Of a DNA stretch of 7,259 nt, positions 1 to 7,169 are shown piece by piece (the first letter of the stretch is position 1; each line of letters starts with the position of its first letter). The position numbers and the translations under genes are program-made. Origin of the DNA: Candidatus Pygmaiobacter gallistercoris (GTDB taxonomy: Bacteria > Bacillota > Clostridia > Oscillospirales > Ruminococcaceae); the NCBI GenBank assembly GCA_019113125.1, contig DXIA01000077.1, positions 1 to 7,259 on the forward strand, in the 5' to 3' direction. The notes under the pieces are model-generated. The model saw only the letters and a list, made by a program, of their open reading frames with translations, searched no databases and was not told the DNA's origin.

Positions 1-53
1 AGCCGCGCAAAAGCGGCCTTTTTACGGCGTTGTTTTCTTATTCTGCCACACCT
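1..53 (+). repeat. Left copy of a 53-bp inverted repeat (51/53 identical)
   Basis: Bases 1-53 match the reverse complement of 7117-7169 with only two mismatches (positions 42 and 46). Similarity stops at 54. The left edge of the repeat cannot be seen because the window begins inside it. The repeat contains the terminator hairpin at 2-23 and the following T/G-rich stretch. Both copies point inward, bracketing about 7.06 kb. It may be a dispersed terminator cassette, a remnant of a duplicated gene end, or an assembly boundary. Confidence 0.9.
2..23 (+). terminator. Intrinsic terminator of an unseen upstream plus-strand gene
   Basis: A stem GCCGC (2-6) pairs with GCGGC (13-17) across the loop GCAAAA, followed by C and five T (19-23). 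This is the form of a rho-independent terminator read on the plus strand, so a plus-strand gene probably ends just before the window. The same structure, inverted, follows the partial gene at the right edge, which supports its function as a gene-end signal. Confidence 0.7.
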
Positions 54-115
54 TTGTCCAATTCCTGTTTGGGCGGCAAGGGGCATCCGCAAAGGTATGA
101 AAAGCCCCGCTCCCC

Positions 116-2798: not shown

Positions 2799-3455
2799 TC
2801 ACTTTGCGATATACAGCGCCCGCTTTTCCCGCCGGCGCAGCGGCGCCGGGACAACCGCCCGGAAGAGCAGCGCCAGCCCGAAATCCGCCGCGAGGGCAAG
2901 CAGACAGGCGGGCAGCGCCCCTGCGAGGGTCATGCTGCCGTTTCCCTGCTGGATCCCCTGCAGGATCAGCTCCCCGAGGCCGCCGCCCCGCATCGTCGCG
3001 AGGGTGACCATACCGACCGCCGCGATTCCCGCCCGGCGCAGCCCCGCCATCACCTGCGGACTGGCCAGCGGCAGCAGCACCCGCACAAAGATGGTGGCCG
3101 GGTCCATCCCCATCCCGAGCGCCGCGTCGATCGGCGGCCGGCCGATCCGGCGAAATCCCTTTTCAGTGCCGAAGATCACCGGCAGGATGGTGAAGAAGAG
3201 CGCCGCGAGCAGGCTGGTGATGGTGCTGTGCCGGCCCGGCGCCATCAGGATGCCGAAGACTGCAAAGCCCGGCAGCGTCTTGAGCAGATTGACAAAGCCG
3301 ATCATCGGCGGGGTCAGCGCCCGGTACCGGTAGGCCAGCAGCCCTAGTGGAAAACCGATCGCCACCGCCAGCAGAAAGGTGCCGCCGGTCAGCAGCAGCT
3401 GGCCGCCGAGCGCTGGCCAGAACCCGATCTGGGAGAGAAACTCAGGCAGACTCAC
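2799..3455 (-). CDS. ABC importer permease, OpuCB/ProW-like (quaternary amine or osmolyte type)
   Basis: This 218-residue inner-membrane protein is the usual length for single-domain permeases of the glycine betaine/choline/carnitine importers. It has about five or six membrane segments and the cytoplasmic EAA loop at about 110-140: AALGMGMDPATIFVRV (111-126), then LPLASPQVMAGLR (128-140), which docks to the ATPase. The GGGLGELILQGI stretch (157-168) matches the conserved segment after the EAA loop in OpuCB. The start is a GTG at 3455 that overlaps the ATPase stop by four bases (GTGA), with AGGAGG 10 bases upstream (3466-3471). The two proteins are thus coupled. No substrate-binding protein gene and no fused binding domain are present. 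The substrate is unknown; a glycine betaine-like compound is only a family-level guess. Confidence 0.9.
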   Translation of the reverse strand: MSLPEFLSQIGFWPALGGQLLLTGGTFLLAVAIGFPLGLLAYRYRALTPPMIGFVNLLKTLPGFAVFGILMAPGRHSTITSLLAALFFTILPVIFGTEKGFRRIGRPPIDAALGMGMDPATIFVRVLLPLASPQVMAGLRRAGIAAVGMVTLATMRGGGLGELILQGIQQGNGSMTLAGALPACLLALAADFGLALLFRAVVPAPLRRREKRALYIAK

Positions 3456-4582
3456 AGCGGCTCCACCTCCTCCAGTTCCATTGATTGCTGGCTGAGAATG
3501 GTGACTATGCTCGAGTTGGTGATCAGCCCCACCAGCTTTTCGTTCTGCACCACCGGGATCGCGTTGACCCGGTAACGGCGAATCTTGGCCAGCAGCTCGG
3601 GGACCGTCTCCTCGGGGGAGGCGGTGGTCTTTGCCTCCCGCATCACGCTCTTGATGGCCTCCTCCTTGTTGTCACAGCGGTGGACATGTTCCGCCCGGAC
3701 AATCCCCAGGAAATAGCCGTCCTCATCCACCACCAGCAGCGAGTCGACCCGCGCCAGCCGCATCTTCTCCATCCCCTTGAGCATCGGTACCTCGGGGTGG
3801 GTGGTCACCGGGCTGGTGATCATGATGTCCGACGCGCGGATCTCCTGCGGGCGGGAGAAGATCCGGTTGCGACCGACAAACTGCTCGACAAACCCCGGCT
3901 GCGGCTCCCGCAGAATCTCCTCCGGCTTGTCGTACTGCAGCACCCGGCCCCGCTCCATGATGCACAGCCGGTCGGCGATCCGAATCGCCTCCTCGATGCT
4001 GCTGGTGATAAAGACGACGGTGCGGCGCATCAGCGCCTGCAGCGTGACCAGCTCATCCTGCATCCGGCTGCGCTGCGCCGGCTCGAGGGCGGCGAACGGA
4101 TCGTCCATGAGCAGAATCTCGGGATCGGTCGCAAACGCCCGGGCGATACAGACCCGCTGGCGCTCCATCGCGGTGAGCTGATAGGGATACCGGTCCATAA
4201 ACTCCCCCTGCGGCAGCGAGAAGAGGGAGGCCAGCTCCCCCAACCGCCGGTCGACCGCCGACTGTGCCCAGCGGGCCAGCCGCAGCGGCTCGCAGAGGTT
4301 CTGCCGCACACTCTGGTGCTCGAACAGCCCGGCGTACTGGGTCACATAGCCCATGCTCCGCCGCAGCGCCTGTACCGGCTGACGGGCAATGTCCTGCCCG
4401 TCGATCAGCACCCGCCCGGTGGTGGGGGCGATCAGCCGGTTAATCATCTTGAGGGTGGTGGTCTTGCCGCAGCCGGAGGGGCCGGCGATCACCACCAGCT
4501 CCCGGTCCGGGATCTGCAGATTGACCCCGCTGAGCACTGTGGTGCCGCCCACCGACTTGCTGACATGTTCAAATTCGATCAA
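3452..4582 (-). CDS. OpuCA/ProV-like ABC ATPase with tandem CBS domains and degenerate catalytic motifs
   Basis: This 376-residue protein has an ABC ATPase domain (about 1-240) and two CBS domains (about 246-303 and 308-366), the arrangement of OpuCA, in which CBS domains regulate import. Walker A GPSGCGKT (34-41) and the Q-loop Q82 (GYVTQ) are normal. Other motifs depart from the family. LTAME (136-140) stands where LSGGQ belongs. MDD (159-161) replaces MDE, so D161 stands for the catalytic glutamate. ALEP (165-168) replaces ALDP. S194 replaces the switch histidine (FITSS for FVTHD). V11 stands where the A-loop aromatic is expected. The start is taken as TTG at 4582, with AAAGGAG 11 bases upstream (4594-4600), giving the family-like beginning IEFEHVSK. 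The frame is open to 4717, but that part crosses the promoter. It is first in a two-gene operon. Confidence 0.9.
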
Positions 4583-4608
4583 AGCGCGGCGCACTCCTTT
4601 ATCCTGAA

Positions 4609-4658: not shown

Positions 4659-4687
4659 ATTGTACCATACCCTCCCCCGCTTTTGAA
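4659..4687 (-). promoter_or_regulatory. Predicted promoter of the ABC importer operon
   Basis: On the minus strand, TTCAAA (4687-4682) is followed after 17 bases by TACAAT (4664-4659), with TGG directly before the -10 (extended -10). The leader to the TTG start would be about 70 bases. The promoter is divergent from that of the helicase gene, and the two -10 boxes are about 105 bases apart. Confidence 0.62.
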
Positions 4688-4825: not shown

Positions 4826-6304
4826 ATGACCTTTAAGGAATTAGGGCTGATCCCCACCCTGCTGCGGGCGGTCAGTGAACTCGATTACGTCACCCCCACC
4901 CCGATCCAGCAGCAGGCGATTCCGGTGGTGCTCGCGGGGCGGGATCTGATCGGCTGCGCCCAGACCGGCACCGGCAAAACCGCCGCCTTTGCGGTGCCGA
5001 TTTTGCAGCGGATGCAGGCGGACGGCGGCCGCCGCAGGGGCAAAGCAGCTCCCATCCGGGCGCTGGTGCTCACCCCGACCCGGGAGCTGGCGCTGCAGAT
5101 CAAGGAGAGCTTTGACGCCTACGGGCGGTATCTGCCGCTGAAAAACGCCGTCATCTTCGGCGGGGTCGGACAGGGGCCGCAGGTCGCCGCACTGCAGGCG
5201 GGGGTGGATATCCTGGTCGCGACCCCCGGCCGGCTCAACGACCTGATCGGACAGGGATACATCGACCTGTCGGCGGTGGCATATTTCGTGCTGGACGAGG
5301 CCGACCGGATGCTGGACATGGGCTTTATCCAGGACGTCAAAAAGGTGCTGCGCCATCTGCCGGACAAGAGCCGCCGCCAGACGCTGCTCTTCTCGGCGAC
5401 AATGCCCGCCGAAATCGAGGCGCTCGCCGACCAGATCCTGAAGGATCCGGTCAAGGTGGCGGTCACCCCCGTCTCCTCGACGGTGGATGCGATCCGCCAG
5501 CGGCTCTACAAGGTGGACAAGGCGAACAAGCGGGCGCTGCTCTTGCATCTGCTGCAGGACGAGACGCTGCGCTCGGTGCTGGTCTTCACCCGCACCAAAC
5601 ACGGGGCCGACCGGGTGGCCCGGGATCTCAACCGGGCGAAGATCGCGGCGATGGCGATCCACGGCAACAAGAGCCAGAGCGCCCGGCAGAACGCGCTGGA
5701 GAGTTTCAAGAGCGGCAAAATCCGGGTGCTGGTGGCGACCGACATCGCCGCCCGCGGCATCGACATCGAGGAGCTGTCCTGTGTGATCAACTTTGATCTG
5801 CCGAATCTGCCCGAGACCTATGTGCACCGGATCGGGCGCACCGGCCGGGCGGGTCACGGCGGTCTTGCGATCAGCTTTTGCATGTTCGATGAACTGCCCT
5901 ATCTCAAGGAGATCGAAAAGCTGATCCGAAAGACCATCCCGGAGGTGACCGACCACCCCTATCCGATGCAGCAGACCGCCCCCGCCGAAAAACAGCCGGC
6001 GCAGCAAAAGCAGCCCGATCCCCAGCCGGAGAAGAAAAAAACGCCGAAAAAGCGAAAGAGGGGGCAACGGCAGCCGCAACAGGCTGCGCAGCCCACCCCC
6101 CTCGCCGCTTTGCCCCGGCCGGCAGCGCCGGTGCAGGAGGCGCCGGTCTTTGTCGAGCGGCGGCGCGCCCCCCGACCGGAGGGGCAGCCGATCTTCACCC
6201 TGCCCCGGCAGCCCGAGCCCGCCCCCACACCGGCGCCCCGGCGCAAGCCGAAGGGGGAGAGCCTGCTCCACCGCCGCCCCCAGCGCACCCGGCGGCAGGG
6301 CTGA
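4826..6304 (+). CDS. DEAD-box ATP-dependent RNA helicase, RhlE type
   Basis: This 492-residue cytosolic RNA helicase unwinds short RNA duplexes in ATP-dependent remodelling, typically in ribosome assembly or cold adaptation. All family motifs are intact: Q motif (F3; [10 protein letters not shown] 24-33), motif I AQTGTGKT (45-52), Ia PTRELA (84-89), GG (112-113), Ib TPGR (133-136), II DEAD (157-160), III SAT (190-192), IV VLVFTR (251-256), [12 protein letters not shown] (304-314) and [12 protein letters not shown] (334-343). The helicase core ends near 375. A tail of about 115 residues follows, rich in Pro, Gln, Lys, Arg and Ala, with basic clusters such as [12 protein letters not shown], which probably binds RNA non-specifically. 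The ATG at 4826 follows AAGAGG by 9 bases; an out-of-frame ATG at 4823 stops after four codons. No terminator follows before the mntP promoter, so the riboswitch terminator may end its transcripts. Confidence 0.96.
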
Positions 6305-6318
6305 AAATCAAATCAGTC

Positions 6319-6347
6319 TTGACAAACCCGGGCTTTCCTGCGAAAAT
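6319..6347 (+). promoter_or_regulatory. Predicted promoter of the riboswitch-mntP transcript
   Basis: A perfect TTGACA (6319-6324) is followed after 17 bases by GAAAAT (6342-6347), with TGC before it forming an extended -10. The start is predicted near 6354, just before the riboswitch P1 strand at 6357. The promoter begins only 15 bases after the helicase stop codon. Confidence 0.68.
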
Positions 6348-6353
6348 AGAGTC

Positions 6354-6478
6354 TGTCATAGGGGAGTAGTTTGCACGGTGCGCCGTGTTCCCAAGTCAAC
6401 ATTCTGGCCCCCGGGCCTGGCTTGTGTTCAAAACGAGACTTATGTATAGCTTTCATCGGCTATACATAGGTCTTTTTT
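6354..6478 (+). promoter_or_regulatory. yybP-ykoY manganese riboswitch with transcription-terminating expression platform
   Basis: The leader of mntP carries the conserved elements of the yybP-ykoY Mn2+ riboswitch in order: GGGGAGTA (6361-6368), a CACGG/CCGTG hairpin (6374-6387), GTCAACATTCTGG (6395-6407), a GGCC/GGCC hairpin (6406-6417), and ACGAGAC (6433-6439). P1 is CATAGG (6357-6362) with CTTATG (6439-6444), including one G-T wobble. The 3' strand of P1 is also the 5' arm of the terminator at 6437-6478, so the two folds exclude each other. In this riboswitch class, Mn2+ binding stabilises the aptamer, which here would prevent the terminator and switch mntP on when manganese is high. The class is established; the switching direction here is inferred from the overlap. 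Confidence 0.92.
6437..6478 (+). terminator. Attenuator terminator of the mntP riboswitch
   Basis: A 14-bp stem, GACTTATGTATAGC (6437-6450) with GCTATACATAGGTC (6459-6472), has one G-T wobble and an 8-base loop, and is followed by six T (6473-6478). It competes with aptamer P1 for 6439-6444. It is also the first intrinsic terminator downstream of the helicase gene. Confidence 0.93.
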
Positions 6479-6534
6479 AGTGTCACCGTATACAAAACAG
6501 CCGCCTGAGGCCGGCGGCGGATGGAGGAAAAAAC

Positions 6535-7086
6535 ATGATCGGATTTTGGGATATTCTGCTCATTGGCATTGGTCTGTCGATGGACGCTGTTGCGGTCAGC
6601 GTCTCCAACGCACTGGCCTACCCCTGCATGGGCCGGGGGCGGCGGCTGGCAATCCCCGCGGCCTTCGGACTGTTTCAGGGGCTGATGCCGATCCTCGGTT
6701 TTTTTGCCGGCAGCCTCTTCGCCGATCTGATCAACCGGTATGCCGGCATCGTCACCCTGGTGATCCTAGCCGGCATCGGGCTGAATATGATCCGGGAGGG
6801 CTTTGACACAGACCCCGAGCAGCCCTGCGAGGAGAAGGTGCTCACCGCCCCCGCGCTGCTGGCCCAGGCGGTCGCAACCAGCATCGATGCCTTTGCGGTC
6901 GGGGTGAGTTTCTGTGCCGGTGGCGCAAATATCCTTTTCGCCGCACCGGTGATCGCGGTCACCACCTTCTGCTGCAGCCTGTTGGCGCTGGCGGTGGGCA
7001 GCCGGTTCGGCGCGGCGCTGGGCCACCGGGCTGAGGTCCTCGGCGGCGCGGTGCTGATCCTGATCGGGATCAAGGCGATGTTCTGA
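6535..7086 (+). CDS. mntP: Manganese efflux pump MntP
   Basis: This 183-residue integral membrane protein exports Mn2+ from the cytoplasm. It has six predicted membrane segments arranged as two related halves, each with the family's Asp motif: LSMDAVAVS (14-22, D17) and ATSIDAFAVGVS (114-125, D118). The FGLFQGLMPILGFFAG segment (44-59) and the LIGIKAMF end (176-183) also fit MntP, whose usual length is about 180-190. A hydrophilic loop (about 87-103) separates the halves. The ATG at 6535 has GGAGG 7 bases upstream (6523-6527). Expression is controlled by the Mn2+ riboswitch directly upstream. A GCCGCC/GGCGGC hairpin (6500-6518) ends 4 bases before the ribosome binding site. No clear plus-strand terminator follows: the hairpin at 7150-7169 lacks a T tract on this strand. 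Confidence 0.96.
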   Translation: MIGFWDILLIGIGLSMDAVAVSVSNALAYPCMGRGRRLAIPAAFGLFQGLMPILGFFAGSLFADLINRYAGIVTLVILAGIGLNMIREGFDTDPEQPCEEKVLTAPALLAQAVATSIDAFAVGVSFCAGGANILFAAPVIAVTTFCCSLLALAVGSRFGAALGHRAEVLGGAVLILIGIKAMF

Positions 7087-7116
7087 CCGTTCTGACAAAA
7101 AGGTCTGCTGCGACTG

Positions 7117-7169
7117 AGGTGTGTCAGGATAAGAAAACAACGCCGTAAAAAGGCCGCTTTTGCGCGGCT
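7117..7169 (-). repeat. Right copy of the 53-bp inverted repeat
   Basis: This is the reverse complement of 1-53 with two mismatches (7128 and 7124). It starts inside the spacer after mntP and ends 6 bases before the stop codon of the partial minus-strand gene. It includes that gene's terminator plus about 30 bases beyond it, so conservation extends past what a terminator alone needs. Confidence 0.9.
7147..7168 (-). terminator. Intrinsic terminator of the minus-strand gene at the right edge
   Basis: Read on the minus strand, GCCGC pairs with GCGGC over GCAAAA, followed by C and five T. It begins 7 bases after the TGA of the partial gene. An alternative larger hairpin, CGCCG (7175-7171) with CGGCG (7145-7141), encloses it. 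Confidence 0.75.

Follow-up and report, generated by a model that had tools for sequence, protein, structure and literature searches.

A degenerate OpuC-type ATPase and permease pair in Pygmaiobacter, without hydrolysis motifs or a binding domain, as a predicted CBS-controlled switch

Introduction

OpuC-type importers and OpuA of Lactococcus lactis are the closest described systems to the gene pair reported here. In ABC ATPases, the catalytic Glu, the switch His and the A-loop are cis elements of the ATP site, the signature motif and the D-loop are its trans elements, and the residues following the Q-loop face the permease. Most ABC proteins known not to hydrolyse ATP are halves of asymmetric pairs. 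The non-hydrolysing halves of asymmetric exporters have been reviewed, and this review describes both Walker B Asp sites in exporters that may hydrolyse slowly and a D-loop Asp change that made ABCB2/B3 a nucleotide-gated facilitator (PMC7756269). For OpuA, an E190Q substitution is described as preventing hydrolysis, and replacement of the docking-interface residue V149 by Gln as lowering the betaine-dependent ATPase activity two- to three-fold (PMC11065425). The known control of OpuA is CBS regulation by c-di-AMP, which is described as binding the CBS part of both OpuA and OpuCA; for BusAA, binding is described as absent in DRaCALA and yet present in the cryo-EM structure (PMC10243994).

Among the best matches in the open-access literature, no degenerate, receptor-less OpuC-type importer is reported. 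Here we describe an ATPase and permease pair of this kind, encoded in a 7,259-nt stretch of DNA (hereafter the window) that corresponds to contig C21 in a draft genome of 1.6 Mb (92% complete); this genome shares its genus code with Pygmaiobacter massiliensis. An initial annotation had drawn attention to the ATPase; the missing binding domain, the losses in the docking loop of the permease, a reversal of evolutionary constraint and a second lineage, G073, go beyond it.

Results

The degenerate, OpuCA-like ATPase-CBS gene occupies positions 3452-4582, stop codon included, and encodes 376 aa from a TTG start at 4582. The initial annotation had these coordinates right and left the strand, which is minus, unstated. 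AAAGGAG lies ahead of the TTG start at 4594-4600 on the minus strand, and a candidate promoter on the same strand (4659..4687; TTCAAA-17-TACAAT, with TG before the second hexamer) is a consensus match only. The plus-strand frame over 3452-4582 is that of the adjacent RhlE helicase extended upstream. The permease gene (2799..3455, minus strand) has a GTG start and encodes 218 aa comprising a transmembrane domain only; its first 4 nt are shared with the end of the ATPase gene, and because of this overlap the two proteins are likely to be co-translated.

The window also encodes a hexapeptide-repeat protein, an AzlD/AzlC pair and a uracil-DNA-glycosylase-family protein (140-694, 696-1729 and 1729-2241). 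A 58-nt inverted repeat (93%) is found at the contig ends, at window positions 1-58 and 7112-7169, and its 36-nt core has 39 copies in the genome (at most 3 mismatches) and 0 in a reversed-pattern control. By eye this element is a hairpin followed by T; it may be a terminator-like repeat dispersed through the genome, which could also have broken the assembly. Upstream of an mntP gene (6535-7086) lies a divergent candidate for a manganese riboswitch of the yybP-ykoY type (RF00080; 6349-6447, plus strand), which scored 31 bits (E 4.5e-7) where the gathering score is 45, and gave no match in the gathering search.

The Pfam domains of the ATPase are ABC_tran (108.7 bits) followed by two CBS stretches. 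Its best NCBIfam match is TIGR01186 proV at 304.8 bits, under the cut-off of 326.6. The AF2 model has a mean pLDDT of 90.8, and its top Foldseek match by E-value is OpuA (7ahe_C). A search of about 5.8 billion proteins, with clade clusters taken from the best 120 matches, found at least 18 full-length protein clusters that share the losses of the window ATPase, at 53-99% identity; canonical homologues among these best 120 matches begin at 53% identity. Clade counts given below refer to 19 rows, namely the window and the 18 clusters, after a 573-aa fusion row (P0016) was dropped. Protein length is 376 aa in 17 of the 18 clusters and 394 aa in P0001, which at 99% identity is probably the window's own species.

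The initial annotation had described an ATPase with an ordinary Walker A motif and Q-loop and with substitutions in most other catalytic motifs, and every residue that it listed is found where it was placed. Walker A (GPSGCGKT, residues 34-41; 4460..4483, like all motif positions on the minus strand) is retained in 19/19 clade rows with T or S as its last residue, and Q82 of the Q-loop (4337..4339) in 18/19, P0019 having P. The A-loop position (V11; 4550..4552) is Val in all 19 rows and aromatic in most canonical relatives. At the signature position, LTAME replaces LSGGQ (residues 136-140; 4163..4177), and both glycines are gone in 19/19 rows, with residues that differ within the clade (LTAME, LSPTE, LTHLQ, LDNVQ). 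Walker B ends in MDD (residues 159-161; 4100..4108), the catalytic Glu being Asp throughout the 19 rows; this Asp161 aligns with E190 of OpuA. The D-loop reads ALEP (residues 165-168; 4079..4090), with E167 in the window and the Asp of position 167 gone from every row, and the H-loop position (S194; 4001..4003) is Ser in 17 rows and Asp in 2.

We scored five canonical features across the aligned relatives (signature GG, DE, the D-loop Asp, the His, and Y/F/W/H in the A-loop), and all five are present in 222/256. The 34 flagged relatives comprise 22 of the clade (the window, three loci and the 18 clusters), two that are the G073 protein discussed below, six (L059-L064) flagged by the A-loop only, one of which is truncated there, and four with other changes (P0059, P0065, which is truncated, P0122 and P0127). 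In a 61-row tree built under LG+G4 with no mixture, in which P0121 has an odd letter make-up, all 13 degenerate rows used form one group with support of 100/100, nested among canonical OpuCA proteins; which canonical protein is sister to the clade depends on a weakly supported branch (90/73).

The losses are unevenly distributed along the chain. At 111 ATPase sites, at least 27 of the 28 canonical rows that we chose have the same residue; in a comparison with 12 degenerate rows, 78 of these sites are kept in at least 11 of the 12, 11 are intermediate and 22 are lost. Residues 131-196, which include the signature, the Walker B Glu, the D-loop and the H-loop, hold 18 of the 22 lost sites. From Walker A through residue 95, P88 is the sole site lost, and Walker B Asp160 and the G85-L86-F87-H89-N95 stretch are kept. 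The chain has thus retained its cis phosphate-binding loop and the residues that follow the Q-loop, and its catalytic and dimer-interface elements are gone. Both cis and trans losses fall on the same chain in 19/19 rows, which leaves no intact site to be expected in either a homodimer or a mixed dimer.

The permease matches BPD_transp_1 (60.1 bits, Pfam), so a type I importer permease partner is present. Its AF2 model (mean pLDDT 89.7) finds OpuA (7ahc_A) best by E-value in Foldseek, with CmpB (9u9z) slightly higher by TM-score, and its length is 218-220 aa in the window and the loci L032 and L033. When sites identical in 7 canonical permeases were compared with 12 degenerate rows, 30 were kept and 16 lost, the EAA Glu among the latter, and 26 positions were newly conserved in at least 11 of the 12 degenerate rows. 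Residues 69-76 (3228..3251, minus strand) form the loop aligned with the OpuA docking interface, in which OpuA V149 aligns with M71; P72, G75 and I76 are the same in 7/7 canonical permeases and are gone in most or all of the 12 degenerate rows. The coupling (EAA) region, residues 106-131 (3063..3140, minus strand), keeps G114, G116, P129 and A131, Glu110 is Asp in 12/12 degenerate rows, and positions 118 and 123 are changed in most. Given the 16 lost sites, the permease path may be altered or shut. The degenerate permeases also end in a short C-terminal tail with Ile216 and Lys218 in at least 11 of the 12 rows; these positions are unconserved in the 7 canonical rows.

Canonical relatives carry a binding domain with their permease, either fused to it in a protein of 525-533 aa (G006, G078, G155, G101, G013, G052) or encoded as the next gene (G128). 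A binding-domain profile matched directly downstream at every one of the 29 canonical loci fetched from the class, and 18 more canonical loci also gave a match; it found nothing at L048, L071 and L074, canonical loci that have Pfam OpuAC matches nearby. At none of the five degenerate loci (L031, L032, L033, L066 and the window) is there a binding domain, its absence from the window resting on a genome OpuAC search with matches on contigs C26 and C98 only. The neighbours at the window locus are of other families. OpuAC proteins do occur elsewhere in the window genome (G000) and in G165, G197 (the genome of L031) and G198 (that of L032), so a binding protein could act in trans. The window genome further encodes a canonical system, L065, with ATPase, permeases and binding protein. 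Sister genomes also have canonical systems, and these vary by host, being OpuC-like in G000, G199 and G200 and OpuA-like by appearance in G165. A diadenylate cyclase gene was found in 8/8 genomes searched, the window's included.

Selection on the pair was estimated by NG86 from the window and L031, the one pair with unsaturated dS, other pairs having high or saturated dS. For the nucleotide-binding domain (NBD) dN/dS is 0.065/0.743 = 0.088, for the CBS part 0.026/0.552 = 0.048 (0.022 by YN00) and for the permease 0.071/0.707 = 0.100; the adjacent RhlE helicase, used as a control, has a similar value of 0.068/0.656 = 0.103. Both ATPase and permease are under purifying selection, by dN/dS from this one species pair. 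The initial annotation had doubted simple decay and proposed that recurrence of the same substitutions as a clade with low dN/dS would bear this out, and that close homologues with canonical motifs would instead point to decay. The losses do recur as a clade (19/19 rows, tree group 100/100) at dN/dS of 0.05-0.10 in the unsaturated pair, and sister species share them, with canonical proteins beginning only at 53% identity.

Within the ATPase, constraint is flipped: in canonical relatives the NBD is conserved and the CBS part variable, and in the degenerate clade it is the other way round. Mean pairwise NBD/CBS identity is 0.646/0.737 in 12 degenerate rows versus 0.686/0.449 in 28 canonical rows, and at an NBD identity of 0.55-0.65 the CBS identity is 0.677 in the degenerate clade (29 pairs) versus 0.402 in canonical relatives (76 pairs). 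Between G000 and G200, NBD identity is 90.0% for the degenerate protein and 97.5% for the canonical paralogue, and CBS identity is 94.8% and 89.7%, respectively; a Fisher test on the numbers of differences gives p 0.0025, for one species pair in which truncation leaves the canonical paralogue with 126 CBS columns. The flip stems partly from faster NBD change and not from slower CBS change alone. The initial annotation was thus right that CBS domains are present (approximately residues 250-365; 3488..3835, minus strand), whereas its description of them as normal does not hold, since they are the most conserved part of the protein within the clade, the reverse of canonical relatives.

The degenerate ATPase occurs in 4/7 genomes of the genus: the window's own (G000), G165 (locus L033), G199 and G200, P. 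massiliensis strain Marseille-P3336 being included. A related-locus search of genome contigs gave four loci, one of which, L034 (24% identity), is of another type. Among the loci read in the family (197), order (394) and class (391) genomes there is no further clade member and only the partial case of G073; motif reading covered the fetched loci, which were 29 of 38 matches at class level and, in the family, all but some of the weaker matches. The ATPase is absent from G075, a 97% complete genome of the same genus, where the gene beside RhlE is another one, Mfd-like by eye. Of the other two genus genomes without it, G201 is uninformative, as its contig ends just before the locus position, and no RhlE orthologue was found in G202. 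From its absence in G075, the pair is dispensable in some species.

A second lineage, G073 from a different genus of this family, appears to have lost its receptor along with the signature and the catalytic Glu. Its ATPase has an LAPVQ signature and Asp161 and keeps the D-loop Asp and the His, and its 251-aa permease is without a binding domain (permease and ATPase genes at L066:4714-5469 and 5466-6644, minus strand). The best OpuAC match in this 99% complete genome reaches 23.0 bits against a cut-off of 21.2, compared with 148-225 bits in the other 15 genomes searched. The G073 protein sits in a different, well-supported tree group from the degenerate clade. P0123-P0126, among its nearest relatives, are canonical, P0127 has the His to Asp change only, and two other genomes of its genus gave no match. 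P0122, another relative, has an LTEDQ signature and a Q-loop Arg with Glu and His intact. G073 may represent an intermediate stage.

Discussion

Based on the motifs and their conservation, we favor, with moderate confidence, the proposal that this OpuC-type pair, devoid of hydrolysis motifs and binding domain, is likely no pump and is predicted to serve as a CBS-controlled, ATP-binding switch of a membrane pathway. The missing motifs, considered together with the effect of E190Q in OpuA, the slow Asp sites of exporters and the ABCB2/B3 facilitator, lead us to infer an ATP-binding, non-pumping switch in which the ATPase would have lost catalysis. Walker B Asp sites may hydrolyse slowly, so hydrolysis may not have fallen to zero. 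In the proposed mechanism, ATP would still be bound in cis through Walker A, and the composite ATP sandwich would neither form nor fire. Binding of a ligand to the CBS pair would then change the pose of the NBD; c-di-AMP is the leading candidate because it binds the CBS domain in OpuA and OpuCA. This change of pose could be passed to the permease via the retained coupling contacts. Our working model is a valve, that is, a gated passive path, for example for an osmolyte, and its nearest alternative is a pure signalling or regulatory complex. The initial annotation had suggested a gated switch, responding to ATP or to a CBS ligand, or a regulator, and on the sequence evidence these appear to be better readings than decay.

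It is also conceivable, if rather unlikely, that the pair has no flux of its own and that it, or its ATPase alone, targets canonical OpuC or OpuA as a regulator or decoy, through mixed NBD dimers or by sequestering partners. The canonical system L065 in the window genome and those of the sister genomes provide possible targets, and the CBS part as conserved core would fit such a role. However, the degenerate ATPase retains its own overlapping and constrained permease, the canonical systems differ from host to host, and in the parallel case of G073 there is no OpuAC match above 23.0 bits. With cis and trans elements both gone from one chain, a mixed dimer would consist of two half-broken sites, whereas asymmetric transporters are described as keeping one site intact (PMC7756269). 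A mixed dimer with canonical OpuCA that restores one good site is unlikely for the same reason.

An importer that is slow or driven by binding, borrowing a binding protein in trans and relying on residual hydrolysis at Asp161, seems to us improbable. Asp replacements are described as capable of slow hydrolysis (PMC7756269), the pair keeps Walker A, the Q-loop and 30 of the canonical permease sites, and OpuAC proteins are encoded elsewhere in G000, G165, G197 and G198. Against this, the signature, D-loop and H-switch are gone as well, the docking loop of the permease has lost conserved residues, and the best OpuAC match of G073 is barely over the cut-off. Decay of the operon toward a pseudogene, to which the many lost catalytic residues, the signature residues that differ within the clade and the absence from G075 might point, is as good as ruled out by the clade-wide recurrence of the same losses, Asp161 included, together with dN/dS close to that of the helicase control, open frames of steady length in both genes, a conserved CBS part and 26 newly conserved permease positions.

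We return to the predicted CBS-controlled switch and to how it would stand among known transporters. A whole importer, with two sites expected to be identical, has lost the motifs of both sites and its cargo receptor and yet is kept by selection. If the pair does gate a path or signal, it would show how a pump becomes a switch. The system is compact, having two genes, and can be compared with a canonical relative that the same cell encodes; G073, a partial parallel, may show an intermediate stage.

With OpuC-type importers the window pair shares domain order (ABC_tran and a CBS pair), fold, a type I permease of the BPD_transp_1 family and its place in the tree; unlike them, it is without LSGGQ, the catalytic Glu and a binding domain, its CBS part is more conserved than its NBD, and it scores below the TIGR01186 cut-off. 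For both subunits, OpuA (7ahc, 7ahe) ranks first in sequence comparison and in Foldseek E-value, but it pumps actively and has its binding domain fused, and the window pair has neither the hydrolysis motifs nor that domain. Asymmetric exporters such as TM287/288 and ABCB2/B3 are likewise described as having an altered signature and a Glu to Asp change in an ATP-binding site (PMC7756269). These exporters keep one composite site intact, whereas the losses of the window ATPase all lie in one chain, whose homodimer would have no intact site. In concept, our hypothesis resembles CFTR, in which an ABC transporter has come to serve as a gated path. CFTR is of the exporter type, with one hydrolytic site left and gating by phosphorylation; channel activity of the window pair is only hypothesized. 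Tentatively, an importer may here have become a valve gated by nucleotide and second messenger, with the CBS sensor as its functional core, an importer-derived counterpart of CFTR that could have arisen, at least partly, twice, in the Pygmaiobacter clade and in G073.
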